DNA from: Lachnospiraceae bacterium
GTDB lineage: Bacteria; Bacillota; Clostridia; Lachnospirales; Lachnospiraceae
NCBI GenBank assembly: GCA_017476665.1
Contig: JAFUZJ010000067.1
Coordinates: forward strand, 1 to 61,946
Length of the DNA: 61,946 bases
Direction of reading: 5' to 3'
Shown in pieces: positions 3,847 to 56,860 of the stretch (the stretch's first letter is position 1; each line of letters begins with the position of its first letter). Below the pieces are notes generated by a model. It ran no database searches. It was given only the letters and a program-made list of their open reading frames with translations, and had not been told where the DNA came from. A program made the position numbers and the translations under genes.

Positions 3847-3878
3847 ATATGTCACCTCGTTTTCTGTTGATTTCCACA

Positions 3879-4828: not shown

Positions 4829-4876
4829 TGTAATCCTTCCTCCACTCTTATACTTTATGATACTTTTGGGGATTTT

Positions 4877-6487: not shown

Positions 6488-6505
6488 AAGTTTCCGTTCC
6501 TCTTT

Positions 6506-6925
6506 TTATAACTTTTGTTTTTGCAATCTGTTCTCTATCAAAATCACGTTTGCTTCCTGTACTTTGACGTCACGCAAAAATTTCGGCGCATTAAATTTAA
6601 TTTTAGCCTTTTTCTTGATCCCCCTAAATTCTATATACACTGATAGCATCTTGAACACTAATGTTCGTTTCACTTTGATCTTAATCACATCCATTAGACT
6701 GACACTAAAGTCGTTTGCGCCCGTGATGTCAACCAAATGTCCCACGATCCTATCTCTATCCGTTATGACAAAATATCCCGGGAATGTTCCGCTGGAAATA
6801 AAGGTTCCCGCATTTTTATAAATGCAATAAATGGACGCAATCGCATTTTCTCCGGGCTGCAATACCGTTTCAAGCCATTTTGTCATATTTTCATCGTTAA
6901 AGGATTCAAAAAAGCCGCTCCCCAC
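6506..6925 (-). CDS. Hypothetical protein, possible bacterial PH-like domain
   Basis: I do not recognise this 139-residue protein with certainty. It starts at a GTG (MGSGFFESFND) close after pfkA. The middle part has alternating beta-strands of the kind seen in short bacterial PH/GRAM-like proteins: YFVITDRDRIVGHLVD, then FSVSLMDVIKIKVKR, then VYIEFRGIKKKAKIKF. A basic amphipathic C-terminus follows. No signal peptide or membrane segment is seen. It is visibly more A/T-rich than pfkA and dnaX on either side. It sits 18 nt from each neighbour, so it should be co-transcribed. An ATG 13 codons downstream (MTKWLETV) is an alternative start. Confidence 0.6.
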   Translation of the reverse strand: MGSGFFESFNDENMTKWLETVLQPGENAIASIYCIYKNAGTFISSGTFPGYFVITDRDRIVGHLVDITGANDFSVSLMDVIKIKVKRTLVFKMLSVYIEFRGIKKKAKIKFNAPKFLRDVKVQEANVILIENRLQKQKL

Positions 6926-39950: not shown

Positions 39951-40092
39951 AACGAAAGGCGATGATTTCTGACCTTCCACAAGATAAACAAGAAGAATAC
40001 AAAAGACAAAAAGAAGATATTTTGCTGAAGAAATAACCTAAAATGACCTAAGGTGCAGGCTCTTATTCAATCATTAAGAGCCTGCACCTTTT
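39951..40092 (+). ncRNA. Candidate small RNA or small-ORF transcript
   Basis: A plus-strand unit with its own promoter (TTGAAT 39916-39921, 17-base spacer, TAAAAT 39939-39944; a perfect TTGACA also lies at 39904-39909) and a strong terminator at 40050-40092. The transcript would be about 140 nt. It contains a 24-codon ORF (39962-40036, ISDLPQDKQEEYKRQKED core, very Lys/Glu/Gln-rich), but AAAGG is only 2 nt from its ATG, so translation is uncertain. Its 3' end is antisense to the last codons of the convergent GH43 gene. Confidence 0.4.
40050..40092 (+). terminator. Strong hairpin embedded in the 3' end of the GH43 gene
   Basis: A perfect 15-bp stem (40050-40064 with 40076-40090) with an 11-base loop and TTTT at 40089-40092 on the plus strand. 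On the minus strand it covers the last codons and stop (40067-40069) of the ankyrin-GH43 gene, where no T-run follows, so it serves mainly the plus-strand transcript. Confidence 0.8.
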
Positions 40093-42076
40093 CATATAAT
40101 TCCTCGGTAAAGTCTTCAAACTCCGCCCGATACGCAGCACCGTCCCCGGCATAGGCATACATTCCCACCATAGCGCCAGTGAACCGCTTGCCTTTCTTCA
40201 GTCCCTCATCACACAGATAATAGACATTCTCAAGGGCAGCACTTTCCTCCTCCCAATCTGTTCCGTCATCCGCGCAATAGGAAAATTTCCTCGCCAGCCC
40301 CTTTGTCGCCACCCGGAAAAGGATGCTCTTCCACGCGGTTACCTGCACTTTCTCAAAACCGGATCTTCGCACCTCATCTCCGATCTTCTCCAACACGCCT
40401 ATGTACACCCCATCTTCCTCCGCGAACAGACCGTACTTTACAAAGGTATTCTCATCATAATAGCACACCATGCCGCAGTTCTGTCCCGGCTGCAGCTTCG
40501 GAATCCGCATCCGCACCTGCGCCGTAAAATCAAACGCCGTCTGCCTGCGCACCAGAATATTTCTGGCGTCAATGGTATCCAGATCCGCTTTGCTCCCCTT
40601 GATCAGCACATGTCCGTCTGCAAAAGTAAAGCCGTCTTTTTCCGGAGCCCGCACAGACAGCCACTGTCTATACAGGGTATCCGCGGAAAATCCCGGGATT
40701 GCCTGGGTCTTAGTCATCCCTGCCTTGTCCGCCGCCTCTGCCGCAGCCACATCCGCCTGGGCATCAACCGCCCTCGCCGCCCCCGTTCGCGGCTTCACCT
40801 GCAGACAGGACGGTCCCTTCAAATCGTTCACAATAGGCCACCCGTCCGCCGTCCACGTGATCGGATCCAGTGCGGTTTCCCTGCCCAACATGCTGTATGC
40901 CGAACCGTCCGCCCCTACCAGCTTCCGCCCGCACAGATACACCATATACCAATCGCCTTGGGCGGTCTGCACGGGTTTTCCGTGCCCGCAGCGCTGGATC
41001 CCTGCACCGGCGTCCTCCTGACGCATGATCGGATTGTACGGACAGGGCTCGTAATTCCCCTTTAACGTCCGGCTCCTGGAAACCGTGATCCGATGCCCCG
41101 GTCCGGTGCCGCCCTCCGCCTCAAACAGATAATAATATCCGTCCTTCCGAAGCAAATGCGGTCCCTCCGGCGCCCGCTTGTTGTCCCCATAGTACAAAAG
41201 CTCCGCCTCGGAAATCTGCTTCGTGCAATCCTCATTTAATTCAAAAATCCGCGCGCCGCGATTTAACAGCATATAATGCCTGCCGTCCTCATCCGTAAAG
41301 ATGGACGGATCGATCCCGTCCTCATCAATGATCGCCGGCTTACTATACGGCCCCTCCGGCTTCTCGGAACTCACCACGATCTGCTTGCGGTACACCGTCC
41401 CGTCATCATTCAGCCGATAGGTGGCCGTGATATAAAATCTGCCGTCCGCATACGAAATATCCGGCGCCCAGTATCCTCTGCCCCCCTCAATGCCGTCCAA
41501 CATGCACCACTCCGGCTCCGTGATCGCATGCCCGATGATCTCCCAGTGGATCAAATCCTTCGAGTGCGACACCGGAATACAGGGAAAATACACAAAGGTG
41601 GAATTTACCATATAATAATCCTCCCCCACCCGCACAATGGACGGATCCGGGAAAAATCCCGTACGGATCGGATTTTTGTACATATCCTGGAGCGCCGCGC
41701 CCACGTACTGCTCAAAATAATCCACCAGCTCTCCGAATCCAAGCCGCGCCGCCAGCTCATAAGGCGTCTCCAGGTCAAAATCTCCCGTCACCGGCGACAT
41801 GCCCACCTTCTCCACAAGATACCGGCACACCTCCACACTTCCCGACAGCACTCCGTAATGCAGAATATTCCTGTGCTTATCGTCCACAATGTTCATGCTG
41901 GCTCTGGAATACTCCACCACATATTTCACCAACGCAAGATTTCCCGTCCGCGTCGCCAGGAAACTCATTAACGTCCCCGCTTCATCCTTCCGATCGATTT
42001 TCGACGGTTCCTCTTCCAGAATACGCCTGACCTCCGCCACATCTTCCTGCAAAATTGCCTGTTCTATATCCTGCAT
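40067..42076 (-). CDS. Ankyrin-repeat / GH43 fusion protein
   Basis: The 669-residue protein begins with ankyrin-like repeats (about 1-125: EAGTLMSFLATRTGNLALVKYVVE, KHRNILHYGVLSGSVEVCRYLVE, ETPYELAARLGFGELVDYF). A five-bladed GH43 catalytic domain follows (about 135-430) with the base Asp in FPDPSIVRVGEDYY, Asp in DGIDPSIFTDEDG and the acid Glu in APEGPHLLRKDGYYYL. A C-terminal beta-sandwich (about 475-660) resembles the GH43 accessory domain. No signal peptide, so it is cytoplasmic, probably cutting arabinosyl or xylosyl ends of imported oligomers. GGAGG precedes the ATG. The ankyrin fusion is unusual for a glycosidase. Confidence 0.9.
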   Translation of the reverse strand: MQDIEQAILQEDVAEVRRILEEEPSKIDRKDEAGTLMSFLATRTGNLALVKYVVEYSRASMNIVDDKHRNILHYGVLSGSVEVCRYLVEKVGMSPVTGDFDLETPYELAARLGFGELVDYFEQYVGAALQDMYKNPIRTGFFPDPSIVRVGEDYYMVNSTFVYFPCIPVSHSKDLIHWEIIGHAITEPEWCMLDGIEGGRGYWAPDISYADGRFYITATYRLNDDGTVYRKQIVVSSEKPEGPYSKPAIIDEDGIDPSIFTDEDGRHYMLLNRGARIFELNEDCTKQISEAELLYYGDNKRAPEGPHLLRKDGYYYLFEAEGGTGPGHRITVSRSRTLKGNYEPCPYNPIMRQEDAGAGIQRCGHGKPVQTAQGDWYMVYLCGRKLVGADGSAYSMLGRETALDPITWTADGWPIVNDLKGPSCLQVKPRTGAARAVDAQADVAAAEAADKAGMTKTQAIPGFSADTLYRQWLSVRAPEKDGFTFADGHVLIKGSKADLDTIDARNILVRRQTAFDFTAQVRMRIPKLQPGQNCGMVCYYDENTFVKYGLFAEEDGVYIGVLEKIGDEVRRSGFEKVQVTAWKSILFRVATKGLARKFSYCADDGTDWEEESAALENVYYLCDEGLKKGKRFTGAMVGMYAYAGDGAAYRAEFEDFTEELYEKVQALND

Positions 42077-42112
42077 ACACTTTCCTCCGCACAGACTTTA
42101 TCCACTAAAAAC

Positions 42113-42141
42113 AGTATACCATACGGATACCCCCCTGTCAT
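42113..42141 (-). promoter_or_regulatory. Promoter of the ankyrin-GH43 gene
   Basis: Minus strand: ATGACA (42136-42141), 17-base spacer, TATACT (42113-42118), about 40 nt before the start codon. It is divergent from the zinc-ribbon promoter. Confidence 0.65.
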
Positions 42142-42202
42142 TCAGCAAATGTACAAAATCAAATACAAACGCCATGTACTTGATTTCGTACATTCCATCA
42201 TG

Positions 42203-42231
42203 TTGACAACCCCAAAAGAATAAGATAGAAT
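42203..42231 (+). promoter_or_regulatory. Promoter of the zinc-ribbon membrane protein
   Basis: Plus strand: perfect TTGACA (42203-42208), 17-base spacer, TAGAAT (42226-42231), about 50 nt before the start at 42281. Confidence 0.75.
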
Positions 42232-42280
42232 GAACAACGTTTCGAGGAAAAAGATTAAACAAAGAAGAGGTAGATGAAAG

Positions 42281-42955
42281 ATGAATTGTCCGATCTGTAA
42301 TACTGAAGTAGGCGATAACTACAAATTCTGCACCAAGTGTGGCTTAAGACTTGCACCGGCTGTAAGAATGGCTGCCAAATCGGAAGTACAGGAAGCGCCC
42401 AAGGCCGCAGCTTCTGTGGAAGCTCCCAAGGCAACAGCTCCTCAGGCACAAGCTCCCGCTGCAGCGCCCGCGCCCCGCGCGATTCCGCCTGTACCTGTAC
42501 AGCCCTGGAAAACCGAGTCCGCTCCGGAACCCGCTACGCAGAAGTCCAAAAAGGCACCCAGCATTCTGGTTGCTGCTATCGCTACAATCGTTGTGGTTGC
42601 AGGCGGCATTTTGATCTTTGGCAAGGACAACGAGCCCGCCGTCAGCGCTGCACCGACTACACCGGCTGAAACCGCCGTTTACGATGCTTCCGAGGATACG
42701 GACGAAGTTTACGAAGCTTCCGAAGATCTGGACGAGGAAGAGTCTACCGCTTCTGTAAATACATCTGTAACATACGATGACGAGGAAGAAGATGAGGACG
42801 AGGATGTTGCTCCTGTAAGCACAACCTCCTCTGCAAGCTATGAGGACGAAGAAGATGAGGACGAGGATGACGGCTATATCGCTCCCGCGCCTGCAGCTTC
42901 CAAGACCACCGTTACCTCTTCCAGCTACGATGACGAGGAATGGCCGGAGGAATAA
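42281..42955 (+). CDS. Zinc-ribbon membrane protein with an acidic exposed tail
   Basis: The 224-residue protein has an N-terminal zinc ribbon (Cys 3, 6, 17, 20), an Ala/Pro-rich linker (about 25-90), one membrane helix (about 93-113) and a C-terminal tail of about 110 residues extremely rich in Asp, Glu, Ser and Tyr (DDEEEDEDED, YEDEEDEDED, SYDDEEWPEE). The zinc ribbon should be cytoplasmic and the acidic tail outside. Zinc-ribbon-TM proteins are common in Lachnospiraceae, but this tail is not a known domain. It is a single-gene unit with promoter and terminator. Confidence 0.8.
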   Translation: MNCPICNTEVGDNYKFCTKCGLRLAPAVRMAAKSEVQEAPKAAASVEAPKATAPQAQAPAAAPAPRAIPPVPVQPWKTESAPEPATQKSKKAPSILVAAIATIVVVAGGILIFGKDNEPAVSAAPTTPAETAVYDASEDTDEVYEASEDLDEEESTASVNTSVTYDDEEEDEDEDVAPVSTTSSASYEDEEDEDEDDGYIAPAPAASKTTVTSSSYDDEEWPEE

Positions 42956-42985
42956 TATTATACCTCATAACAAATATAAAGCATC

Positions 42986-43014
42986 CCCCGGAGTCGCAAC
43001 CTCCGGGGTTTTTT
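42986..43014 (+). terminator. Terminator of the zinc-ribbon gene
   Basis: CCCCGGAG pairs with CTCCGGGG (42986-42993 with 43001-43008, loop of 7) followed by TTTTTT. The first ATG of the kinase fragment begins directly after the T run (43015). Confidence 0.93.
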
Positions 43015-43386
43015 ATGATTGAAAAAGACAGACTGCGCATGGAACAGGCAATCGACAATGTTGTGAGCAACTCCTGTAAATATGCCGGAACAGATATTCA
43101 TGTCAGCTTCGACAGCTATTCGGTGGAAACCTCCATGGACCAGACCGCAGGCGGAATGAAAGCGGAATTCCTGCGTATCCACATCAAGGATGAAGGTCCC
43201 GGCGTCAGCGAGGAAAAGCTTCCCCTCATCACTGAGAAATACTATCGTGGCAGCAATTCAGCCAAAATAGCCGGTTCCGGACTCGGCTTCTATCTGGTGA
43301 AATACTACATGGAAAAACAGGGCGGCGGCCTGGAATACTACAATGATAACGGCTTTACCGTGGAGCTGCTGCTGAGAAAAGTGTAG
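43015..43386 (+). pseudogene. Remnant of a sensor histidine kinase (ATPase domain only)
   Basis: The 123 codons encode only a HATPase_c domain: N box (IDNVVSNSCKYA), G1 (DEGPGV), F region (EKYYRG) and G2 (GSGLGFYLVKYYMEKQGGG), ending in the usual LLLRKV. Sensor, HAMP and phospho-accepting His domains are absent. It has no RBS and begins right at the T-tract of the preceding terminator, and it stops 4 nt from the convergent VWA gene. No response regulator is adjacent. The best reading is a decaying or deletion-truncated kinase gene; a functional mini-ATPase is less likely. Confidence 0.75.
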
Positions 43387-43390
43387 TGTG

Positions 43391-44575
43391 TTACTGAAGA
43401 CCGGTCGTATCCAATGCCCTGTGCTTCAGTGCCTGTTCCAAAAGCTCCGGAAGTTTATCCGGCGGGCACCCGAAGCATGGAATATCCATCGCCGCAATTC
43501 TCTCTGCCATCTGATGATCATATACCGGCTTGCCACTGTCAGAGATCGCCAACAGCACCACTACCGTCACACCTGATCCCTTCAAGGTATCAAGGCGCTG
43601 CAGAAGTCCGGCGCGATTTCCGTTTTCACACAGATCTGTCACCAAAAACAATGTCGTCTTGGACGGATTCGCGATCAACTCACTGCAATAGGCAACCGAC
43701 TTTTCAATATCGGTTCCGCCACCGAGCTGAATTCCATAAAGAAGCTCCACCGGATCCTCACAGAGCTCCGTCAGATCCGTCACCTCCGTATTAAACGCTA
43801 CCACATAGGTTTTCACAGAACTGATCCCCGCAAGTATACAGCCCATGACGGAGGCATAAATTGCCGACTCTCCCATGGAGCCGCTCTGATCAATATCCAA
43901 AATGATGGTCCGAGAGTCACTCCGTGCAGTGGACGCATGCTCAAAAAAATAAAATTTCTCCGGATAGATTGTCTTGCTTTCTTTGTCATAATTCTTCATA
44001 TTTCTGCGTATGGTCAGTTTGTAATCCAGTGCACTCGCTGACGGAATCGGCGTATGCATGCGTCTGTTGACGGCTGCACTGACACATCTTTTTACATCAT
44101 CCGCCAATTTTTTGTTGATCTCTTCCACAATGCGCCGAATGTACTCTCTTGCCTGCTCCTTCGCCTTCTTCGGAATCTGATCCTTCATCAGCAAAAGCAA
44201 CGACGCCATAGACATATCCGGCGCCATATCCTTCAGCATCTCCGGCTCAAACAAAAGCTGCTTCATCCCCATGCGCTCGATGGCATCATTTTGGATCACA
44301 CGCACCTGCATGGGCGAAAACAGCGTGCGTAAGTCACCCATCCACTTCGTCAAAACAGGGGAAGTCATTCCCTTTCCGGCTCCACCGCCGTTTCCTGATC
44401 CGTCCCTATTTTCCCATCCGTAAATCTGAGCCAGCGCCTGGTCCATCAAAAGTTCTTCCTCCGAAAAAGGCACCTGCCCCTCTGCCGGGAACCCACTGTT
44501 GCTTTCGCTGCCGAGGATCAGCCTCCATTTTTTCAATTGTTCCGCCGCATCCCTCGTAATCCCTTCACCTTGCAT
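43391..44575 (-). CDS. VWA-domain protein (YehP-like)
   Basis: The start at 44575 (MQGEGITRDAAEQLKKWRLILG) has AGGTGA 7 nt upstream and matches the N-terminus of E. coli YehP (RWRLILG just after the start); an in-frame start at 44617 has no clear RBS. The protein of about 394 residues has an N-terminal helical part and a C-terminal von Willebrand A domain with the MIDAS: DIDQSGSMGES, Thr in GGGTDIEKS, and Asp in LVTDLCENG. PVELLYGIQLGGGT closely recalls YehP. VWA proteins encoded with MoxR AAA+ ATPases usually act as substrate adaptors for metal-dependent assembly or remodelling. It is last in the cluster. Confidence 0.9.
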   Translation of the reverse strand: MQGEGITRDAAEQLKKWRLILGSESNSGFPAEGQVPFSEEELLMDQALAQIYGWENRDGSGNGGGAGKGMTSPVLTKWMGDLRTLFSPMQVRVIQNDAIERMGMKQLLFEPEMLKDMAPDMSMASLLLLMKDQIPKKAKEQAREYIRRIVEEINKKLADDVKRCVSAAVNRRMHTPIPSASALDYKLTIRRNMKNYDKESKTIYPEKFYFFEHASTARSDSRTIILDIDQSGSMGESAIYASVMGCILAGISSVKTYVVAFNTEVTDLTELCEDPVELLYGIQLGGGTDIEKSVAYCSELIANPSKTTLFLVTDLCENGNRAGLLQRLDTLKGSGVTVVVLLAISDSGKPVYDHQMAERIAAMDIPCFGCPPDKLPELLEQALKHRALDTTGLQ

Positions 44576-44634
44576 CCCGTTTTCACCTTCTGTCCGTCCC
44601 ATATTCCTTAATCTCATTCCCTGATCCGCCGAGA

Positions 44635-46956
44635 TCAGATATCAAAATCAAAATCATCCACTTCACTGACTCCGCTGTTATCGGCACCACTTATCTCAAG
44701 ACTCTCCTCTTGGCTCAGCACCGCATTCACGTACGCCGCGCCTGCCGTCTGCGAGACGCCGAGCAGTTCACAGATATTCTCTGCGATATCCAGCTTCTCC
44801 TCGGCGGTAAAGGTGGAAAAGGTGCGCCTCAGACAAATGACCACCGACTTAAATTCTTCCTCATCCAAATCTCTGATATAGCCCGCAAGATGCTCCCAAA
44901 TACCCATTCTGGCAATCAGTGCCCTGCGATTTCTCCCTGCCAGTCCTTCAAACCAATACGCACCGTCCGATGCCCGCATCCCCTTTGCCAGATGGCGCTC
45001 CATCAGTGCATATAACTTTTCCGCAGCAATGTCGCCCCGCTCCGCCAAGGCACCGCAGGCAAAACCGGAAAGCAGCGGATTCGCCCTATCATCCTCTGCC
45101 AGCTGCAAATACGTTTTCAAAAGCCTCTCCCAATCAAGGAAATCATGGATCAGAGAAACATCCCACACTGTCCCAAGTACAGGCATGATCTCCTTTGCTG
45201 CCGACTCATCACAGATACATTCACCCGAAAGATTCAGGCAGAATTTCAAAAAGAGTTTCTCCATCAATGGCTGGATTTCCGAAAGATCCATCCTGCGGAT
45301 ATTTCCGAATCGCAATGTCATCGACAGATCCCCGAGGGCATTTCCGACATCCTGTGCTGCTTCCTTTCCGGCTGCACTCCTTTGCACAGCCCGGATCGCA
45401 TCCCGCACACACACGATCAGACCTGCCTCTAAAGATCTTGCCAGGATGGCAGCCGCCTCCTTGACATTCGTTGCCTGCCGCAGATATTCTCCGAGTACCT
45501 CTACCGCCGCTTCCTCTATTGTGTCTCCCTTCAAGGATGCCTCAACGATCCGAATCTCCGCCTCCGGCGTCCACTGAATGCTCCATTTTTCCGCCCATGT
45601 TGCATTGTCCTGCCGGCGCTTCTCCTGTTCACAAAAGCCGATGCCGAGAACGGAAAGCCTGTGCAGGAAAAAAGATCTGTTCAGATCCAAAAAAGCCGCT
45701 TCCTGTGACTTTACCCGCAAATTTTCACGAAGATCCAGCTCCAACTGAGTCCGTTCACTGCTTCTGTACTTTTCCAGCTTCAATTCCTTCAGTTGTCTTA
45801 TAAAGTCCTCCTGCACGGAGGTACATACCGTTCCGTCCGGCATTCTGCCGATTTTTGTACCGATTTCCGTAGCTGCCACAGCCGTCGCAATCTGCGAAAA
45901 GTATCCTTCCCCAATGCAGGTGACAGCCGCCGACCGCAGATCCGCAAGTGCCGGAACCCGTCCGCCGTTTAAAACTGCCAATTCTTTCGCCAGACGCAGT
46001 GCCTCAATCACCTGCGCCGAAGATGCCATATTTCCACGCGCTCTCTGATATGCAGCAATTCTTGTCAAATACTCCGCAGCCGCCATGTCCCCGCCCGATG
46101 CACCCGAAAGTGCATTCCGGCACCTCCACAGGATTTCATAATAAAAGGGGGCCTTTGCACCTGCTCCATATCCGGAATGTTCCGACAACCGATAATAGGA
46201 ATACGGCATCAACGTTGCATTGCTGTCTGACAGATTTTGTGCGCCATGCAGCACTTCATCCGTTCTTTTGATATCCTCCTGCGTACATGGCATCTGCACG
46301 GCGCTCGTGTGATACGCCCCCGTGACCACCACAATCCGGCGGTTCGGATCCTCTGCCACTGCCTCTGCGATCATCCGCCGCATATAACTTTCCCTGAGAG
46401 CCTCATGAACCGATTCTGCATCCCGCTTTGCCCTGTTTGAAAATTCCCTCAGCGATGCACCATACGTTTCCATTGCCTTCGCGAGTTCCTCTCCGTTTTC
46501 ACAGCTTTCGAAAGTATACTCCCAGAAAGCATCATGCGGAACGCCTGTGACCTCCTCGATCCGCTCATACACAGAACGATTCTCCGGAGTCGGCGCATCG
46601 CTTTCTTCCTCCGCATTTTCCTTAACCTGCCTGTAATACCCAAGCATTACACTCGAAGGCAGATCAAAAAATCTCGCCTCCCTGCCATTTTCCTTTGCCC
46701 AGAGAATCGCCTGATACTCCGGCGAAAACTCCGCAAAAGGGTAAAGAACCGTCTCAATCGGCGGTTCCTTTGTATACGCGAGAATTGCAGCAGGAAACTG
46801 TGCCTCCTCTGATACCAGTCCATCCATCAGACGATTTAAGTCGGACGGCCCCTCGATCAGCACAAGCTCCGGCTCCTCTCTGCGAAGGAGTTCCCGCAAA
46901 TAATATGCACATACCGGCGACAAATGCCGGATTCCGAAATAACTGATTTTCGTCAT
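44635..46956 (-). CDS. DUF5682 family protein (YehM-like)
   Basis: The start at 46956 overlaps the MoxR stop (TAATG) and has GGAG 9 nt upstream. The 773-residue protein begins FGIRHLSPVCAYYLRELL, then LVLIEGPSDLNRLMDGLV and YPFAEFSPEYQAILWA, close to the corresponding part of E. coli YehM. The N-terminal 270 residues look like a TraB/ChaN-type alpha/beta fold with conserved His and Glu (VVTGAYHTSAVQMP); the rest is helical. The biochemical function of DUF5682 is unknown. It is always seen with MoxR, VWA and SWIM partners. Confidence 0.88.
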   Translation of the reverse strand: MTKISYFGIRHLSPVCAYYLRELLRREEPELVLIEGPSDLNRLMDGLVSEEAQFPAAILAYTKEPPIETVLYPFAEFSPEYQAILWAKENGREARFFDLPSSVMLGYYRQVKENAEEESDAPTPENRSVYERIEEVTGVPHDAFWEYTFESCENGEELAKAMETYGASLREFSNRAKRDAESVHEALRESYMRRMIAEAVAEDPNRRIVVVTGAYHTSAVQMPCTQEDIKRTDEVLHGAQNLSDSNATLMPYSYYRLSEHSGYGAGAKAPFYYEILWRCRNALSGASGGDMAAAEYLTRIAAYQRARGNMASSAQVIEALRLAKELAVLNGGRVPALADLRSAAVTCIGEGYFSQIATAVAATEIGTKIGRMPDGTVCTSVQEDFIRQLKELKLEKYRSSERTQLELDLRENLRVKSQEAAFLDLNRSFFLHRLSVLGIGFCEQEKRRQDNATWAEKWSIQWTPEAEIRIVEASLKGDTIEEAAVEVLGEYLRQATNVKEAAAILARSLEAGLIVCVRDAIRAVQRSAAGKEAAQDVGNALGDLSMTLRFGNIRRMDLSEIQPLMEKLFLKFCLNLSGECICDESAAKEIMPVLGTVWDVSLIHDFLDWERLLKTYLQLAEDDRANPLLSGFACGALAERGDIAAEKLYALMERHLAKGMRASDGAYWFEGLAGRNRRALIARMGIWEHLAGYIRDLDEEEFKSVVICLRRTFSTFTAEEKLDIAENICELLGVSQTAGAAYVNAVLSQEESLEISGADNSGVSEVDDFDFDI

Positions 46957-48044
46957 TACAGCAGACTCCTGCATTCCGCATAAAGCGCGCTATACTCTTT
47001 GCCACGCTTCCGCATAACATTCTCCAGATACTCCTCCCAGACCTTCGCATCCTTTTTGTCATCTTTCACGATCGCGCCCTGCAATGCACTGGCAAGCTCT
47101 GCGTCCGTCACTTTACCGCTTCCGAAGCTACCGGCAAGCGCCATGCTGTTCACAATCAGTGAAATCTCCTCTGCTGTCGAGAGTACGCCGCTTGTCTGCG
47201 CCAGCTTTACCGTTCCGTCAAGCGTTTTTCCCTCGCGAAGTTCACGGAAGATCGTTACAACTTTTTCAACTGTCTTCGCCTCCGGCATAGCCGCGCGCAA
47301 TTCAAAATCATTTGCCAACCGTTTTGCCCTTGTCTGCACAATCTCCATCTCTGCCTCGATGGAAGCCGGCGCTGGCAGCACCACAATATTAAATCTCCTC
47401 TTCAGCGCGGAACTCATCTCATTCACGCCCTTATCCCTTGTGTTGGCCGTCGCAATGATGGAAAACCCCTTTTTTGCAGCCACTTCATCCGAAAGTTCCG
47501 GAATGGCAATGCGCTTTTCAGAGAGGATAGAGATCAAGGCATCCTGTACCTCACTTGCACAGCGCGAAATCTCCTCCACCCGTGCGATGGCACCTTCCTC
47601 CATCGCCGCATAAATAGGGCTCTTGATGATACTCTCATAAGACGGTCCCTTCGCAAGCAGCATCGCGTAATTCCACGAATAGCGAATCTGTTCCTCTGTG
47701 GTGCCTGCGGTTCCCTGGATCACGCGGGAGGAATTACCGTTGATTGCAGCCGTAAGATGCTCTGAGAGCCACGATTTCGCCGTACCGGGCTCTCCGATGA
47801 GGAGTAACGCCCGATCCGTTACCAGTGTGGCGATACAGATTTCCACCAACCGCTTGTCTCCGATATACTTCGGTGTGATCTGCATATTCCCCACTTTTCC
47901 GCCACAGATATAGGTGAGCACCGAACGCGGCGACATCTGCCATCCCGTCGGGATTGGGTCTTTCTCCGCATCAATCAACGCCCGAATCTCCTCTTTGTAG
48001 GTTTCCTCCGCGGCAATCCGCAAAATCTCTTTTTGATTCTCCAT
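46956..48044 (-). CDS. MoxR-family AAA+ ATPase (YehL-like)
   Basis: The 362-residue ATPase has Walker A GEPGTAKS (84-91), a Walker B region IARVEEISRCASEVQDAL in which the usual acidic pair reads EE, sensor 1 FSIIATANTRDKG, and the arginine finger ALKRRF, followed by the small lid domain. MoxR enzymes act as chaperone-like remodelers with VWA partners. Gene order next to VWA, DUF5682 and SWIM genes and the PRSVLTYICGGKV N-terminus fit the YehL subfamily. It is 12 nt after the HEAT gene. Confidence 0.92.
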   Translation of the reverse strand: MENQKEILRIAAEETYKEEIRALIDAEKDPIPTGWQMSPRSVLTYICGGKVGNMQITPKYIGDKRLVEICIATLVTDRALLLIGEPGTAKSWLSEHLTAAINGNSSRVIQGTAGTTEEQIRYSWNYAMLLAKGPSYESIIKSPIYAAMEEGAIARVEEISRCASEVQDALISILSEKRIAIPELSDEVAAKKGFSIIATANTRDKGVNEMSSALKRRFNIVVLPAPASIEAEMEIVQTRAKRLANDFELRAAMPEAKTVEKVVTIFRELREGKTLDGTVKLAQTSGVLSTAEEISLIVNSMALAGSFGSGKVTDAELASALQGAIVKDDKKDAKVWEEYLENVMRKRGKEYSALYAECRSLL

Positions 48045-48056
48045 AGCAACCCTCTC

Positions 48057-49997
48057 TTATCTCTTTTTATATAACCAATCGGCTCCCAGCATCCGGTAAA
48101 TCACATCCAAAACTTTCTGTGTATCTTCTTTTCTTGCCTTCAGCGCTCCCGACGAGATTTTTTTATCCGCAAAGTCATATTCTTTGATCATCTGTTCCCG
48201 ATTGGAATCCTCCACAAAATAGGAAAGATTCCAGCCTCCGCCCGGTGAAACCGATCTGTCAAGATTGTGCAGCTCAATATTCTTGCGGACAAACTCATAA
48301 TACAGATCATCTCTTCCCTTTCTGTCCGGAATCACTCTATGGATGAGAGCTCCGTAATATACGGACGGGTGCGCCTCAACAGCTTTTTCCAAAAACGGGA
48401 CTGCCATTTTGGCAATCTGTTCCCGATCCCAGCTCCCGACACTGTATATTCCCTGACCGTAATCCGCACAAAGCATTCTCGTCTCCGGTCTGCTGCTCAG
48501 GCAAAGCTTGGCCAAAGTCACGCAGCACTCTGCCGTTGCATGAAAATTCCGCAATGCTTCCTGACTCGTCAAGACTTCAAGCAAAACCTGCGGATAATGC
48601 TCTCCGAGCCATTTCGTGCCGAAATCATACCCTCTCGTCCACTCCAGACGATACCTGTTGATCACGGGGATCGCATGGATATGCCTTACCAGTTCAGACG
48701 CAAATCGATAATAGACCGGGCATTTTTTATCCTCTCTGAAAACGCCATACATACAGGTATTTACTTCCTTCAAATCAGCCGCTTGCAGCGTTCCGTTCAT
48801 AAAATTGCTATAGACATGTGCTTCCGCAAAAAACTTCGGCTCCTTTGCATACAGCCTGTTGAGCAGGTCTTCTGTTCCCTCGTAATTTTCAAACAGATTA
48901 CGAATCAAAACCTCCTGCACGCCACCGTCAGCTCCGTTATAGTTTCTCATGAATTTGCTGAGCGTCAGACAAGCCTCCTCCGCCTCCGATCCGGTTTTGT
49001 GATCCAAAAAGTTGAACCTGCCTGTCGGTTTTGACTGTTTTTTCAGTTCAAGAACTTTCTTTAAAGCGTATGTTTCACAAACCGAAGCCGATGAAATCCC
49101 GATCAGATCTGCCTCTGCCTGGGTAAGCACTTCTTTCTCGCAAAGCTTTTCCAAATAGGACTGTATCCCCTCGGAGTTGATCCGTACCAGCGATTCTATT
49201 GCCGCATTCTTGATCTTACCCTTCCCGGTCTGATAAAGTTCCAAAAGCACTGCATCATTTTCGGCACTACAGGCAAGCGCTGCAATCGCCTCCAGCCGCA
49301 CCTTCTGCGGCGCATTTTCATTCTGTGCCAATTCCAGATACCAGGCATTCTCCCTTGCGCCGTATTTTTGTGCAATCAACGCAACCTGCCTTCCCTTTGC
49401 AGCGGCATCCCTTAAATCTACACCCTCCTTATAAATCTTCGCGAGATCCGACCCGCAGATCTCCAACATGATCGCGGCCAGTCTGTCATATGGCTGTGAT
49501 GCCTTTCCGTTCAATCCCTCGGCCAGTCTGGTACAAAAACGGATATCCGTAAGAACCTCGGGATAGGTATCCGGTATCTCCAAAACCTTCTCGCTCGCCT
49601 TGCTGAGGATTTCGAAGACCTGCGTCATGACGGAAGCCGGAATATCCTTTACCGGACACTCCCTCTGCCAGATGCCGTCATCCTCCGCACCCGGCTCAGG
49701 CTCCGTCTCATCCGCCTGCATAACTTTATTCCCTGCAGCATTCGCCCGTCCAAGTGTGACAGCAATTGCATCCGCAAGCGCAATGCAGTCTGCAAGCTGG
49801 GAAGCCGCATCCTCTCCGGCAGTCAAAAGGTTTTCACACTTTTGCTTTAATGCCGCAAACACTTTTCCCTTCTCCGCCAGCGCGCCGAGTCCTTCAACTG
49901 CCCGCTTGAAACGAAAGTCCTCCGGGATAATCCCGCAGCCCGCAAGTGCCGCATTATATAATCTGTCCTGTAACTCATAAAAAACCGCAATATCCAT
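48057..49997 (-). CDS. HEAT-repeat-like scaffold protein of the MoxR/VWA cluster
   Basis: The 646-residue protein is almost wholly helical, with HEAT-type repeats visible at about residues 220-300 (ENAPQKVRLEAIAALACSAENDAVLLELYQ, then IKNAAIESLVRINSEGIQSYLEKLC). The C-terminal third (YRLEWTRGYDFGTKWLGEHYP, FVRKNIELHNL, YFVEDSNREQMIKEYDF) has no family I can name. No signal peptide. GGAGG precedes the ATG. It has no obvious counterpart in the four-gene E. coli yehLMPQ set, so it is an extra part of this version, probably a protein-interaction scaffold. Confidence 0.75.
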   Translation of the reverse strand: MDIAVFYELQDRLYNAALAGCGIIPEDFRFKRAVEGLGALAEKGKVFAALKQKCENLLTAGEDAASQLADCIALADAIAVTLGRANAAGNKVMQADETEPEPGAEDDGIWQRECPVKDIPASVMTQVFEILSKASEKVLEIPDTYPEVLTDIRFCTRLAEGLNGKASQPYDRLAAIMLEICGSDLAKIYKEGVDLRDAAAKGRQVALIAQKYGARENAWYLELAQNENAPQKVRLEAIAALACSAENDAVLLELYQTGKGKIKNAAIESLVRINSEGIQSYLEKLCEKEVLTQAEADLIGISSASVCETYALKKVLELKKQSKPTGRFNFLDHKTGSEAEEACLTLSKFMRNYNGADGGVQEVLIRNLFENYEGTEDLLNRLYAKEPKFFAEAHVYSNFMNGTLQAADLKEVNTCMYGVFREDKKCPVYYRFASELVRHIHAIPVINRYRLEWTRGYDFGTKWLGEHYPQVLLEVLTSQEALRNFHATAECCVTLAKLCLSSRPETRMLCADYGQGIYSVGSWDREQIAKMAVPFLEKAVEAHPSVYYGALIHRVIPDRKGRDDLYYEFVRKNIELHNLDRSVSPGGGWNLSYFVEDSNREQMIKEYDFADKKISSGALKARKEDTQKVLDVIYRMLGADWLYKKR

Positions 49998-50028
49998 GTT
50001 TCCTCCATGCTCCCCCGCGAGCAGATGC

Positions 50029-51489
50029 TTAAATAAGTCTCAGAATTTCGGACTGGGTTACCAAAGTGACCGGCACCAGATAGACAACCCTGTCTTCCGA
50101 TGCATAACGGATCTCACAGAAAAGCGCTCCTCCTGTGAGATACCTTTTGGGCAGAAAATGCAAGATTTCCAATGCTCCTGTTCCATCGGGATGTGACTTC
50201 AAAGTCATAGCTTCCTCGCCCTTCCAAAGCACTGCGTCGGCTTCCTCAGAAAACGAAATACGGTCAAAAGAGATCAGCATTGCTACCGCCTCATCAGACA
50301 GGGTATTTTTCAACTCATTCTTTGCTTCTTTCAAAGCAGCTCCCACTTCGTTTCTTGCCAGCGAAAGCACCTTGGCGGGAACGTCCTTCCCTCGCGGCTC
50401 ACTCACCGCGTCCTCCCAACGGATTCTCTTGTTGATCCCTCCCGGATAATGATACAGTCTTTTAATCTTATATAATTCAAATGCACTTTCATCTGCACGA
50501 ACATATTTTTTTGCCTTGACGGGGCGTATATTCTCTGTTTTGGAAATTTCCCCACTATCAAGATCGATCCAATACCCCGTGTCGATCTCTGCCTGCGCCG
50601 CCTCATCCCACAATACCCCAAAGGAAAGCTGCACAAGCCTTGCGTCATCCTGATACAGTCCGAGTGCATCCAGCTGATCCAATCTCCAGATTCCGCCCAT
50701 CTCTTCATACAGGATATCGTTCTTCGGTCCGAAATCTCCGCTTTCCAGTTGCTTCTCCAGCCAGAGTTTTCCCTTTTTCGCAGTCTGATCCAGACGGATC
50801 AGACACTCCACAAGTTCTCTCTCTCCGCTTGTCCCGCGATCAGCCTGCGCTGCAAGGATAAACCGTTGCAGCAAAAGCTGCGGTCCATTCAAATAATAAT
50901 CGCCCAACTGTTTTTCCAGATCCTTGTATCGTGCAATCGTAGCGCTGTTTATGGTTCCGAGTCCGGCGCGCAACATTTCCCGTGTAAAGTCCAAAACCAG
51001 TTCCAGTCCCTCCAGTTGACGGGCAACCTTTTTCTTTGCAGCCTGATCCGAAGCAGCCTTCTTTTTCTGTGCCGCCTTTTGCGAATTTGCTCCCGCCAGT
51101 TCCGATTCCTTACCGGTCGCTTCCTGTTTCGCATGCTCCGCCCGTTTTTCCAGTTTTTCTCTCTTTCGCGCCACATCCTCCGGCACTTCACCCTGCTCAA
51201 AAAACTTCCCCGCTGCATAATCCAGCATTAATGCCAGCGCATGCTTGCACGGAATCTGCCTGCTCGGACAACTGCACCTGCTGATTACCGTCTCCCCAGA
51301 CAAATCCACTGAAGTGTGATACGGTTCCTTCCCTGAACCCTGACAGTCTCCGTAAATTAATGTCCTGTCTGTCGTAATCTTCCTGCCGGAGCACTCATCC
51401 TTCGCCGATATCTTGCGCGCATTCGCAAGTGCCGAAGAATTCACTGCGCTGCGTTGTACATATTCTTCCGTAAGTCCTGAAATATCCAT
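50029..51489 (-). CDS. SWIM zinc-finger protein (YehQ-like)
   Basis: The 486-residue protein has a SWIM zinc finger near its N-terminus (Cys 72, 74, 81 and His 83 in RCSCPSRQIPCKHALALML), then a Lys/Ala/Gln-rich coiled-coil linker (about 105-165), a helical middle, and a C-terminal part with strands and the DAVLWKGEEAMTLKSHPDGTGALEIL segment. SWIM fingers bind DNA or proteins. Proteins of this design accompany MoxR/VWA genes, including E. coli YehQ. It is probably the first gene of the five-gene block (31 nt before the HEAT gene). Confidence 0.88.
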   Translation of the reverse strand: MDISGLTEEYVQRSAVNSSALANARKISAKDECSGRKITTDRTLIYGDCQGSGKEPYHTSVDLSGETVISRCSCPSRQIPCKHALALMLDYAAGKFFEQGEVPEDVARKREKLEKRAEHAKQEATGKESELAGANSQKAAQKKKAASDQAAKKKVARQLEGLELVLDFTREMLRAGLGTINSATIARYKDLEKQLGDYYLNGPQLLLQRFILAAQADRGTSGERELVECLIRLDQTAKKGKLWLEKQLESGDFGPKNDILYEEMGGIWRLDQLDALGLYQDDARLVQLSFGVLWDEAAQAEIDTGYWIDLDSGEISKTENIRPVKAKKYVRADESAFELYKIKRLYHYPGGINKRIRWEDAVSEPRGKDVPAKVLSLARNEVGAALKEAKNELKNTLSDEAVAMLISFDRISFSEEADAVLWKGEEAMTLKSHPDGTGALEILHFLPKRYLTGGALFCEIRYASEDRVVYLVPVTLVTQSEILRLI

Positions 51490-51531
51490 AAAAACCCCCT
51501 TATCACAGTGGTCTCTTCTCAGCTGTTCCCA

Positions 51532-53247
51532 TTATGGTTGATCATGATCCGGCAAAGGTCCGCAATACCTTACGTAATCGACAATCGCATAACCGCATGC
51601 TGCCGCGCTCCCCTCGCCGTCCTTATGCACGCAGAACACGCCGTTCTTCACACCGACCCAACGTCCGGCCTTAGCATCAATCTTCACCTCGCTGCCTTCC
51701 ACCACCTTGCCGTTCAATTCCATGTGCAGGATGATATCCTCTCTCGGGATATGTCTCACCCACACCTCCTTGTTCTGCCAGTCTTTGCGATCCATTTCAT
51801 CCACATATTCCCGAATCTGCACCCGATACTTCCAGATCACATCAAAGCCCGCTTCCGCAAGCGCATCCGCATCCAGCGCCAATACACTCTCCTCGCTCTG
51901 GGCAAAGGCCATCTGATGGTCAAACTCCTGCTTCCCTGTGGTCTTCACCAATTCGTAGCAAACACCATCACTTCCATTCTTGCACCGCACCGCGAGCCCG
52001 GCAAATGTCTGTCCCATAGACACCTGACCCGCCATATCGCCGGGGCACAGATCTCTCACATTCATCTTGATCTCACAGTTAAATTCCGGCGCCGGCCATT
52101 TCTGCAGGAGCAGATTCCGATAGTCGGGAAGCTGACGCATGCGATTTGCCTTTACTGCCTTCAGCCGGATCACCGACTCCTGCGGCTGCATTTGATACCA
52201 GTCGTCCTCAAAATTCGCATTCCACTGCCATTGCAGTCCCAGCGTATCCGACTCAAATTCGTCCGAATGGTCCGGCTCGCAGATTTCTACAGGTTTCCCT
52301 GTGACATCCAGCGCTCCCTGCTTCGCGGTGGCGGGCTTACGATACACCTCCACCGGCTCCCCGTACTCATTCCCGTCCTTTGCAGCGCCGATCACAGGCC
52401 ACCCGTCCTGCCAGCTCATGGGCTGCAGATGCACGATCCGCCCGCCCGCATACACATCCTGAAAATGCAGGAACCAGTCCTCGCCTGTCACCGTGTCCAC
52501 CCAGGCACCCTGGTGCGGTCCGTTTACCGGGGAATCCCCCTGTCTGAGCACAATCCTCCACTCATAGGGCCCCCAGATGTTCCGCGCCCGCAGCACCGTC
52601 TGATGTCCGCACTTCACGCCGCCCGCCGGGGCAAAAATATAGTACCAGCCGTCTTTTTTATAGATCTTAGGACCTTCAATGGTCTCATTCTCCGTATCCC
52701 TGGCGTCAAAAATGATCTTGGACTCCGACAGCAGATGCGTGCCGTCCGGTGCCATCTCCGCCAGTTTCAGCACGCTCTTGTACCCGACTCTCGCACCGGA
52801 CACCGCCGTCGCCAGGTAAGCTTTCCCGTCCTCATCCCAGAACGGACAGGGATCAATCACACCGTACTCCGGCATCATATTCACCGGCTCGCTCCACTCT
52901 CCCCGCGGATCCTTCGTTTTACTCATATACACGCCTTCATCCGGCATAGGGAAAAATACATAATATTCCCCCGCATGATACCGGATTGCCGACGCCCACA
53001 CGCCACAGCCATGCATCGGATTCACAAAACGATACGCCGGCACATGGGTACACACATAATTAACCACCTTCCAGTTTACCAGATCATAAGAGTGCAGAAT
53101 CGGAATCGCCGGCGCATTGCTGAAGCTGGAGGAGATCATGTAATAATCATCCCCCACCCGAATCGCATCCGGATCCGAGTAATCCCCATAGATCACCGGA
53201 TTCTGATAAGTACCGTCCCCCAAATCTGCATGATATAACATTGTCAT
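51532..53247 (-). CDS. GH43 glycoside hydrolase
   Basis: The 571-residue enzyme has the five-bladed GH43 propeller (about 10-320) with the base Asp in YGDYSDPDAIRVGDDYY, Asp in GVIDPCPFWDEDGK and the acid Glu in TIEGPKIYKKDGWYYIF, and a C-terminal beta-sandwich (about 345-565, SDEFESDTLGLQWQWNAN). This layout is seen in beta-xylosidase/arabinofuranosidase subfamilies. No signal peptide, so it acts inside the cell. AGGAGG lies 5 nt from the ATG. It sits between the TIR-propeller gene and the SWIM gene in the same direction, though its function seems unrelated to either. It is not a close paralog of the ankyrin-GH43. Confidence 0.92.
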   Translation of the reverse strand: MTMLYHADLGDGTYQNPVIYGDYSDPDAIRVGDDYYMISSSFSNAPAIPILHSYDLVNWKVVNYVCTHVPAYRFVNPMHGCGVWASAIRYHAGEYYVFFPMPDEGVYMSKTKDPRGEWSEPVNMMPEYGVIDPCPFWDEDGKAYLATAVSGARVGYKSVLKLAEMAPDGTHLLSESKIIFDARDTENETIEGPKIYKKDGWYYIFAPAGGVKCGHQTVLRARNIWGPYEWRIVLRQGDSPVNGPHQGAWVDTVTGEDWFLHFQDVYAGGRIVHLQPMSWQDGWPVIGAAKDGNEYGEPVEVYRKPATAKQGALDVTGKPVEICEPDHSDEFESDTLGLQWQWNANFEDDWYQMQPQESVIRLKAVKANRMRQLPDYRNLLLQKWPAPEFNCEIKMNVRDLCPGDMAGQVSMGQTFAGLAVRCKNGSDGVCYELVKTTGKQEFDHQMAFAQSEESVLALDADALAEAGFDVIWKYRVQIREYVDEMDRKDWQNKEVWVRHIPREDIILHMELNGKVVEGSEVKIDAKAGRWVGVKNGVFCVHKDGEGSAAACGYAIVDYVRYCGPLPDHDQP

Positions 53248-53305
53248 TTTCTCCTCCTGCTCTCTCTCTTTCTGACATTTCTCGCGCCTTACGATCTATC
53301 CATAC

Positions 53306-56300
53306 CTACCATTCCTTCCCCCATACGATTAGATCATCCAGCGTATACGCAGGAATACGCCACACCCCTTGGGTCTCGCCCACACTGCTCATACCGCGAT
53401 TGAGCGCATATACCGTATTTGTTGCCTCATCAAATGCTCCCAACTGATCATAATAGTGAATCTTACGCCATAAAGCAGTATCCACACACAGTGCGGCTCC
53501 GGACGGGAAACACAAATAGGTCCGATTTCGCCCCGGATCATCTATGGTATACAGATAATCTTTGCTCATGTAGTTGATTCCCTGTATACTCTCCTCATAA
53601 ACCAGTGCCCCGCTGTTCAGATCATAAATCTTATAATGATCCTTTTCATATACACAGACTGCCTGATCCTGATTACAGAAAGCGATCTCTTTCACACGCT
53701 CGATTCCACCCTCCAGCGTGATGGTCTGTTTCACCTCCTGCGTTTGCATATCATAAATCCGTAGTTTATCGTCCGAATCCAATGCTGCAAAAACAAGGTC
53801 TTTGTTTCCAAGCACGATATTACGATCCGCATTCTGAGGACAAGCATCCGATATGGTGCAGCTATTGCCGCTCTTCGTATCGTACACAAAGAAAGACTCC
53901 ATCAACTCCTGTTCTGCGTCCCCATACTGTCCCACCAGGATCATTCCGTTTTCTCCGACTTTCAGATAAGGCGTACCATCCCGGAAACCGTTGCTGCCCC
54001 AGAATTTACCGGTTTCGCAGGCCACAACCTGAACACTCTCTTCATTTTTCTTATAACACAATTGGTTCAACTGTTGTTTCCAGGTAACTGTATCCTGTGG
54101 CAGATTGGAATCCAGAGATGCATGGATCACGTCGCCGTCACGGGTCACCACGCCGGAATAGACAGCCACAGGATTTTCCGGCCTCTCTACAACCTCACCG
54201 CCATAGATACGCTCCCACTGTCTGCTCTCCAGATTAAGTACCTTCACCACATCCCTCGTCAAAGAAGACACTGTGTCAATATATGCCAAATGACTGCCAT
54301 CCGGATAAAACAGAAACTGATCCGTACCATAGATCAGGCTTCTCAACTCCCCATAATCCTCCAAAGCAAAACGATACTCTTTTTTTACTTCATCGGAACC
54401 CAGATCCACAATCCGGATCACCGCCTCGTCCTTCGTCAGCACACAAAAAGCCAGCATCCCGTCTTTCACCGGATACGTCCGGAAATTCTGTGCCTCCTCA
54501 TCTATGCTCCATGCAGCGATCTCCACATGGGAATCACTCTCCGGCACCATGAGATACACCGTATTATAATCGTCATCACATACCACAGCCGCTACAGCAT
54601 CCGGATTCATGGTATATCCAAAATCACAGTGAGAAGACACATACCCATCCGTCACATCAAACAGGGCAAAATGCTGCTTATCACAAAATGGACCGGCTTC
54701 AAAACCACCCTCATATCTGCAATGGAGCACGCCCTCATCTGTCAGCAGACCATAGGTCCAGACAGACCAATCTCCTTCACTCAAATACTGCACACCCATA
54801 ATACTGTTGGAATAATCTTCATTTCCGGCCAGTTTGCCATCCTGCTTGATGAACACTAAACGCGTATTGCAAAAAGTTGCCGTGATCGCAGTTGGATGCT
54901 CCGTAGAAAAGGTGGAATGCCATTCCGACTTACCCGAAACCCGCATCGGCAGTTCCTTGGTCATAGCCGTACACTCTCCCAGCCTGCCGTCCCAGAAGAT
55001 TTCATCCATGCGAAGCTCCTGCTCCCCTCCGTCATAATGGAAAACCAGTGTCCTTTTCTGCCCGGGATCCACATAGAACCCCAGTAAATACTGAGCCCAA
55101 GCCTCCCCATTGGCATACCAGACTGCCGATTCCGAATGAATCAATCTGGTCTCGCCCGCCTGCAAATCTGCCACAAAATAATACATTCTATTATCGTAAT
55201 CCTGATCCATGTCATATCCGTAGACTCCGCCAACGACAAAGTTTCCATCCTCCGAAAAAGCTCCCACCTGGGATCCTACAGATTGAGCATAAGCTTTGCC
55301 GGAAACCAACGCCTGAATCTCCTGCGGCATCGGAATCTGCTGTTCTACCGAACCGTCAGACGTGTTCAACACCGTCAGAACATAACCGCCCTGATCATAA
55401 TAGTCCTTGCCCCATGCTGACTGATACTCATCCTCCCCAAAAGCTTCCATCAACGCAAGCCTCTGTCCGTCAGCAGACAGACAACTGAAATCCACCTGCC
55501 CCGGATTATGGAACAGTATTTTTAAATCTTTCACCTCATGACGCCACAAAAGCGAGCCATCCTCCACAGAAAATGCCATAATGCCATTTCCATTCATGCA
55601 CAACAACCTGTCTGTGTCTGCAGGCGCCTCCTCTCCTGTCCCCGTGCCGTCCACTGTCGAGTGTTCCACAAACGCCATACGGTCTCTGCTCACGGCATCA
55701 TAAGAAACCTGTCCACTCATAGTATCCGCCTTCCAGAGCAGACCTCCGTCCTTTGTCCGATAACACCGCACAAGCCCCAGATAGTCTCTGGTAAAAAGGT
55801 ACTCTCCCGTCTCAGACAGCTTAATCTCCTGTATCTCATTGTCCTGGGTAATGCGCACCACTGTCCGTATCTTGTCCGAATACTGCCCTGCCGCCAGCGC
55901 CTCCTGCAAAAGCTCATAGCCATCCCCGCTGTAATTCTTCCGGCCTTCTTCCGAAGCAAGCGCCTGCACGAGCCGATCTACTGCTTTTCTGGAATTTCCG
56001 CTGTCGATCAATGCCGAACCCTCTCGGATCAACGCTTCCGATTCCCGCCTCTTGAGCTCGGAATTCTGCTCCTGGATCTCTTCATTCTGCCTGCTGATCT
56101 GTTCGTTCTGCGCCAAAATCTGCTCATTCTGCCTGGTGATCTCTTTATTCTTCAGATACACATACGAACTGAATGCCACCAGTCCACAGGTTGCCGCAGA
56201 CAGTGCCGTGATCACTACGCGCTGCTTGTGCCGTCTCTCCCGCTGCCACAACGAATCAAACGGGCACCCCAAGATTGCCGCATAAAGACGCATGATCTCC

Positions 56301-56782: not shown

Positions 56783-56831
56783 TGGTCATCCTTTCCTGTT
56801 GAGATTTTTCCGCTAATAGTATATTTCTTTC

Positions 56832-56860
56832 ATTCTATTCTTTTCCGGTATTTTTTTCAA
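56832..56860 (-). promoter_or_regulatory. Promoter of the TIR-propeller gene
   Basis: Minus strand: TTGAAA (56855-56860), 17-base spacer, TAGAAT (56832-56837), at the very end of the MATE gene and about 50 nt before the TIR gene start. Confidence 0.6.

Follow-up and report, generated by a model that had tools for sequence, protein, structure and literature searches.

A clostridial form of the YehL-type MoxR operon carrying a variable HEAT-repeat protein

What do a MoxR-type AAA+ ATPase, a VWA protein, a DUF5682 protein, a SWIM zinc-finger protein and a HEAT-repeat protein do together, and is the last of these a regular component or an accretion? The question is raised by a 61,946-nucleotide contig of a Lachnospiraceae bacterium of the gut (JAFUZJ010000067.1, assembly GCA_017476665.1; the whole stretch is called the window here), in which five open reading frames (ORFs) lie head to tail on the minus strand from 43391 to 51489, in the order SWIM, HEAT, MoxR, DUF5682 and VWA. 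A first-pass annotation of the DNA had placed five genes there, and all five ORFs are found as described; it had also taken them for one complex or pathway, an expanded version of the E. coli yehLMPQ set with a possible role in defence. The locus is, we find, the clostridial version of a widespread MoxR system of the YehL type, a catalogued operon family without an explained function, and its five genes are inherited as one cohesive unit. YehL is one of seven MoxR subfamilies (PMC3893208); the open-access literature searched, outside which most subscription papers lie, gave no function for the YehL operon.

Cohesion and motifs of the five-gene unit

The gaps between successive genes are 31, 12, −19 and 17 base pairs (bp). 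A MoxR profile search of the genome collection gave at least 593 matched stretches, at least 578 of them confirmed, and the best 80 loci were used, mostly from Lachnospiraceae, Oscillospiraceae and other Clostridia. All five genes are present in 60 of the 80, and 48 have a single copy of each in the window's order. In 19 of the 20 incomplete loci the contig stops on the side where the gene is missing; among those counted as limited in this way is L095, with 1.25 kilobases (kb) to spare that an unrelated ORF occupies, and L096 fits the account only if HEAT precedes SWIM, as it does in L088 and L097. Only L110 lacks SWIM, HEAT and VWA despite room on both sides. The loci were picked by likeness to the window MoxR, so the count of 60/80 speaks for this branch.

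The proteins tell the same story. Across 61 complete loci (55 of the 80, leaving out the duplicates L070 and L080, plus the window and five more from its genus) the pairwise-identity matrices of the five proteins correlate, with Mantel r of 0.88–0.95 (p 0.001), at very different levels of conservation: median pairwise identity is 0.78 for MoxR, 0.68 for VWA, 0.56 for DUF5682, 0.47 for SWIM and 0.28 for HEAT. That 60 of the 80 loci, found through MoxR alone, hold all five genes is not chance. The claim of a single unit is borne out, and the survey of co-occurrence proposed for the HEAT gene places it in the recurrent five-gene set. Fusions join members of the system elsewhere: in Hymenobacter sp. 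HDW8, SWIM and DUF5691 share a 1009-residue ORF (its SWIM part is below the Pfam cut-off and reaches 78 bits with a custom SWIM profile), and in Streptomyces atratus the DUF5682 and VWA profiles both match one 1267-residue ORF. Carriage on plasmids is seen in 36 of 72,556 plasmid records, and phage or viral carriage in one unannotated 14-kb record called phage and one weak viral-contig match.

Each protein carries the motifs of its family. The SWIM protein (486 residues, 50029–51489, minus strand; Pfam SWIM, E 7.8e-8), the first gene of the unit, has its metal-binding motif CSCPSRQIPCKH at residues 72–83 (51241–51276), and C-x-C-x(5-8)-C-x-H is kept in 61/61 complete loci. MoxR (362 residues, 46956–48044, minus strand; AAA_5, E 7.2e-38) is YehL-like, with the Walker A motif GEPGTAKS at 47772–47795; this motif and the sensor ATANTRD are each kept in 60/61 loci, while looser test patterns gave 50/61 for a Walker B-like motif and 53/61 for GGTD. 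The protein also passes the bpMoxR cut-off (29.6 against 27 bits); its AAA_5 score is 130. The last gene encodes a VWA protein of CoxE type (408 residues, 43391–44617, minus strand; VWA_CoxE, E 7.7e-40), whose metal-ion-dependent adhesion site (MIDAS) motif DIDQSGSM lies at 43874–43897 and whose D-x-S-x-S is conserved in 61/61. DUF5682 (779 residues, 44635–46974, minus strand; PF18934, E 2.1e-143) overlaps the MoxR gene by 19 bp and has GxRHxSP in 61/61. None of the five window proteins matched NCBIfam above cut-off.

A few loci hold insertions within the unit. In L114 (3499–6839) DUF5682 and VWA are separated by genes for an RtcB RNA ligase, an ankyrin protein and a protein without assignment; in L159 (7414–8580) a DNA gyrase B-like domain protein lies between MoxR and DUF5682. 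Predicted AAA-ATPase/PD-(D/E)XK genes, possibly mobile, are inserted beside HEAT in L073 (8270–9970) and L093 (5578–7170), and ORFs similar to them by eye occur in L098 and L095.

The large-partner slot and the HEAT protein

In E. coli K-12, yehI (DUF4132) and yehK stand directly before yehLMPQ. The window resembles this set in the order of its MoxR, DUF5682 and VWA genes, which are homologous, and both include a SWIM protein and have another large protein close by: the window MoxR is 37% identical to YehL, with shared motifs, DUF5682 is 23% identical to YehM, and five window-like VWAs score 199–211 bits against YehP. The two differ in that SWIM is last in E. coli, that the large protein there is a DUF4132 protein of 1210 residues and not a HEAT protein of 646, and that MoxR lies on a separate branch of its tree. 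The YehI profile matched no window-like locus; the HEAT protein stands there instead. For SWIM the relation to YehQ extends across 68 C-terminal columns (hhalign probability 87%), and the window protein has one SWIM motif against two in YehQ relatives. The match to yehLMPQ that had been proposed is therefore sound for yehL, yehM and yehP, and for yehQ holds in the C-terminal part only, the window protein not being of the two-motif type.

A third arrangement, SWIM-DUF5691-MoxR-DUF5682-VWA, is found in annotated plasmid records of Deinococcus, Rhizobium and Hymenobacter, and of Methylosinus with VWA in pieces: gene order and the four other families are as in the window, with DUF5691 in the HEAT place. 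Some copies are imperfect (SWIM is short in Rhizobium Kim5, and H. radiodurans has three DUF5682 ORFs), and in Deinococcus and Hymenobacter a small extra gene precedes DUF5682. The DUF4132 form occurs also in Agrobacterium vitis and Iodobacter, and in Streptomyces MoxR follows a DUF4132 gene and one more large gene. On the Iodobacter plasmid (L168) two DUF4132 genes, at 351–2324 and 3201–6854, come before MoxR with a transposase between them. The HEAT form is found also in Fusobacterium vincentii (L145), in genome G279 of the window's phylum (L161) and in a Verrucomicrobiia metagenome-assembled genome (L116, the same as L158), and two genomes of the phylum of this last locus have, by the profiles built here, a six-gene form with both DUF5691 and DUF4132 (L156, 7309–17848; L157, 7282–17697).

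In the MoxR tree the HEAT, DUF5691 and DUF4132 forms each make one branch, with Shimodaira–Hasegawa-like approximate likelihood ratio test (SH-aLRT) support of 91, 98 and 100; the tree is a quick one of 54 hand-chosen rows, with long-branch warnings, and covers YehL-type sequences alone. Because the DUF4132 and DUF5691 forms each hold a large partner, on separate MoxR branches, HEAT is, on this comparison of operons, the local occupant of a regular slot and not an addition. The description of the system as "expanded" by HEAT as an extra fifth part does not hold, with yehI beside yehLMPQ and DUF5691 in the HEAT slot of other phyla.

The forms also meet within one genus. DUF5682 is found in 23 of the 61 genomes of the window's genus, and among the 20 neighbourhoods examined (the 23 less the window, G020 and G027) five are window-like (L022–L026) and 15 of the E. 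coli kind. All of these 15 have MoxR-DUF5682; 14 also have VWA, 13 carry a SWIM protein resembling YehQ and 12 a DUF4132 protein resembling YehI, L030 being cut by its contig. Matches occur in eight of 299 genomes of the phylum, the window's included, five of them above the cut-off.

In the HEAT protein itself (646 residues, 48057–49997, minus strand) the repeat signal is weak. The window protein scores 18.3 bits with HEAT_2, whose cut-off is 27.7 (E 0.003); at E up to 1 the model is matched by 32 of 38 family members, the window's included, with 5.8e-8 as the best value, and designed alphaRep structures are matched by the family profile (E 4.9e-9). The best matches of the clean profile outside the family are DUF4132 proteins (E 9.4e-6), and hhalign of the clean profile against DUF4132 gives probabilities of 35–91% (E 4e-4 to 1.2e-6, 73–194 columns), or 20% with shallower alignments, a weak to moderate signal; designed alphaRep proteins match as strongly, so the similarity may be generic to HEAT-type repeats. 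A descent from DUF5691 was considered and set aside: hhalign probabilities of 0.1–0.4 amount to no detectable similarity, PF18944 (DUF5691) has no match in the window genome at E 10, and it matches two of 38 HEAT proteins, at E about 0.2 or weaker.

New here is the way in which this protein varies: its N-terminus is conserved, it is highly variable beyond residue 300, and some loci have extra diverged copies. In means per 50 residues over the 61 loci, with gaps counted as mismatches, column identity is 0.56 for the first 50 residues and 0.24–0.40 up to residue 300 (the better conserved N-terminal part, 49098–49997, minus strand), then, in the variable C-terminal part (residues 301–646; 48060–49097, minus strand), 0.21 up to residue 400 and 0.09–0.15 beyond, the lowest values lying past about residue 400. 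Excluding loci with extra copies or pieces, which leaves 52 single-copy loci, shifts these values by at most 0.01. Two or three HEAT ORFs of more than 400 residues are present in seven of the 80 loci, adjacent in L079, L083, L098, L104, L120 and L121 and apart in L093; copies within a locus are 27–75% identical, the lowest values involving a copy cut by the locus edge. Among 37 pairs of loci with near-identical MoxR, the C-terminal half of HEAT is less conserved than the N-terminal part in 32, more conserved in four and equal in one. An adaptor that docks by a fixed part and binds through a variable face would show such a pattern, which is no proof of one.

The DUF5682 domain and what the unit may do

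The candidate for the catalytic subunit is DUF5682. Within its first 270 residues RH, Glu, Asp, Arg-Glu and GxxH are invariant in 45/45 proteins from all three forms; by position these include His17, Glu41, Arg194-Glu195, Gly219 and His222. The GxRH, Glu and GxxH motifs (in the window GIRH at 46924–46935, Glu41, and GAYH at 46309–46320, minus strand) resemble those of the TIKI superfamily (ChaN, TraB, Ere). ChaN, of the Pfam Tiki superfamily, is matched by 10 of 45 DUF5682 N-terminal domains at E up to 1 (best 6.9e-5), TraB by four of 45 (best 0.027), and the next family besides DUF5682 itself by two of 45; with full-length proteins ChaN appears in seven of 30 at E up to 10. From these profile matches and motifs we consider it likely that the N-terminal domain (46150–46950, minus strand) belongs to the TIKI superfamily. 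DUF5682 differs from ChaN, TraB and Ere in a long C-terminal part, and the His17–Glu41 spacing is 24, against 28 for His–Glu in Bcr135 and RRSP (PMC6254334).

The account we favour, and hold tentatively, is that MoxR and VWA make up a remodelling machine, that its action is on, or together with, a TIKI-like hydrolase, and that HEAT is the target adaptor. MoxR would be the ATP-driven ring and VWA the coupling partner that grips the target through the MIDAS metal, roles assigned by analogy with NorQ-NorD. MoxR proteins usually have VWA partners, and the pairs work as remodelers (PMC13036017, PMC3893208); in NorQD the VWA protein inserts a finger into the pore of the ATPase, and the authors propose that a twisting force enables metal insertion (PMC13036017). 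NorQ-NorD, CoxD-CoxE and RavA-ViaA are like the window in pairing an AAA+ MoxR with a VWA partner, and differ in belonging to other MoxR subfamilies, with other partners and with known or proposed clients. DUF5682, its N-terminal domain probably a TIKI-superfamily hydrolase, would be the catalytic or client subunit, and SWIM a fixed zinc-containing subunit. HEAT would dock through its conserved N-terminal part, serving as adaptor or scaffold, while its variable C-terminal half chose the client proteins; the outcome would be selective remodelling or processing of cytoplasmic clients.

Within one clade, the N-degron pathway of ClpS/ClpA/Aat may take up the products. Genes clpS and clpA stand behind the operon on the same strand in nine of the 80 loci, with aat as well in eight; counting only loci in which VWA is present and followed by 500 bp or more, it is nine of 63. 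In eight of them clpS and VWA are 5–105 bp apart, while in L095 an ORF intervenes; for L079 the assignments as ClpS, Clp ATPase and Aat are supported by Pfam. Eight of the 11 genomes of the genus with ClpS also carry DUF5682 (Fisher p 0.011, or 0.022 without the window, uncorrected for kinship or genome size); ClpS is present in two of seven window-like genomes and in six of 16 others with DUF5682, G027 being classed by its DUF5682 score alone. The fullest version of the proposal, adaptor-programmed ATP-dependent processing in which variable, multiplied HEAT adaptors would feed the MoxR-VWA motor and the TIKI-type hydrolase DUF5682, and cut products with new N-termini would go on to ClpS-ClpA-Aat, strikes us as quite improbable.

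Several observations weigh against the account. The window DUF5682 domain scores 14.9 bits against ChaN, below the curated cut-off of 27.7; of the 2His/2Glu residues known from RRSP, DUF5682 has no counterpart to the first Glu; and its N-terminal profile has no convincing match among PDB chains (best E 0.28), so that TIKI membership rests on sub-cut-off matches and motifs. For HEAT, many of the 37 pairs come from one clade and multi-copy pairs may compare different copies; among single-copy pairs the C-terminal half is less conserved in 11 of 16, more so in four and tied in one. Positive selection on HEAT was not seen, dN (nonsynonymous) being below dS (synonymous) wherever both were computable, with synonymous sites often saturated. 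In the related H. radiodurans record the families that the fusion joins occupy separate, overlapping ORFs, and no client is known for the proposed machine. The clp-linked loci all lie within one shallow MoxR-tree clade of ten, of which L090 is without clp; confined in this way, the linkage is probably one event, and as a general feature of the system the N-degron link was rejected. In the window genome clpS-clpA-aat is on another contig and absent beside the operon.

The nearest competitor is a classical MoxR-VWA maturation factor, which would insert metal into, or assemble, one dedicated client (DUF5682 or an enzyme elsewhere), with SWIM and HEAT as scaffolds and no cleavage; we regard this as doubtful. 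The VWA is of CoxE type; CoxD-CoxE has a link with the insertion of metal clusters (PMC7159879), as NorQ-NorD has with that of iron (PMC13036017). DUF5682 stays with MoxR as a dedicated client might, even sharing an ORF with VWA in one record. Such a factor would leave the variable, multiplied HEAT protein unexplained, and no flanking family occurs in more than 10 of the clustered loci, which means that no metalloenzyme operon is a constant neighbour.

An anti-phage or conflict system, with HEAT as fast-evolving sensor and DUF5682 as effector hydrolase, is unlikely. It would account for the variability and extra copies of HEAT and for the patchy presence within the genus, and GEPGTAKS fits the GxxxTAKS P-loop variant described for two MoxR-vWA conflict subsystems, those of FtsH and propeller (PMC7159879), alongside the bpMoxR match; the same motif is found in E. 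coli YehL, however, and so is not diagnostic of conflict systems. The ternary systems (PMC7159879) share the MoxR-VWA core and this P-loop with the window, and differ in that VMAP, iSTAND, FtsH and propeller partners were not found among the five genes, nor was an effector domain on the VWA. PADLOC gave no specific match for the five core genes, only weak partial SWIM and AAA similarities, and a weak Cas10 match in one of 30 DUF5682 proteins. For the flanks, 109 proteins from 29 loci were selected and 104 scanned, five being left out: PADLOC matched 107 families at E 1e-10, and among the 25 listed are Wadjet JetA and JetC in L056 (14632–17797), a type I specificity subunit in L053 (14597–15754) and AbiLii in L073 (14644–15393), so that defence-type genes directly adjoin at least three of the 29 loci, a raw count without a background set. 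AbiLii also lies beside L059, outside this sample, and an HsdR-N domain gene lies inside the operon in L109. Against these, the neighbours are by eye varied chromosomal genes, led in Pfam by chemotaxis, HAMP, ABC, radical-SAM and YebC (among 25 of 148 families listed); viral carriage comes to the two records given above, and the TIR gene of the window (see below) is not linked at other loci. The defence role that the first-pass annotation had raised is not supported, though the defence-type neighbours leave it some probability.

SWIM domains can bind nucleic acid, and a machine in which SWIM and HEAT would bind RNA or DNA while MoxR-VWA remodelled a ribonucleoprotein, perhaps in RNA repair, could draw on the RtcB gene between DUF5682 and VWA in L114 and on PNKP-ligase and Hen1 domains found once each among the 104 flanking proteins (by eye in L092), but these are two loci only, the other tested inserts are unrelated, and we think it very unlikely.

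Neighbouring genes and the place of the locus in the YehL family

Around the window operon lie genes of other kinds. Upstream of SWIM, on the same strand, is a GH43 gene (Pfam; 51532–53247), across a 42-bp gap without a terminator-like site. Next (53306–56782, minus strand) comes a protein of 1158 residues that has a TIR domain at its N-terminus, propeller-like repeats and, by eye, a likely membrane segment; as far as the flanks of the 101 loci reached, its profile matched none but the window, and the gene was rejected as a partner. On the other side a convergent 148-residue HATPase_c fragment (42940–43386, plus strand) stands 4 bp past the VWA end, resembling the end of a histidine kinase without the remainder, and beyond it (40067–42076, minus strand) a single 669-residue ORF combines, by eye, an ankyrin-repeat-like N-terminus with a GH43 remainder, an unusual fusion. 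Rfam at gathering thresholds gave no match within 40000–58000.

The locus draws its interest from a slot whose occupant can be swapped, a HEAT protein that varies and a domain that is probably a hydrolase. For the YehL family it provides a frame, three forms that differ in their large repeat-type partner, and puts forward one subunit as possibly catalytic and another as possibly conferring specificity, both testable in E. coli K-12. There yehI to yehQ appear on the deletion list of the genome-reduced strain DGF-298 (PMC10652928), and being among its deletions they are dispensable in K-12. If adaptor-programmed processing were true, it would amount to a kind of regulated proteolysis new among bacteria, and yehLMPQ would have its explanation.

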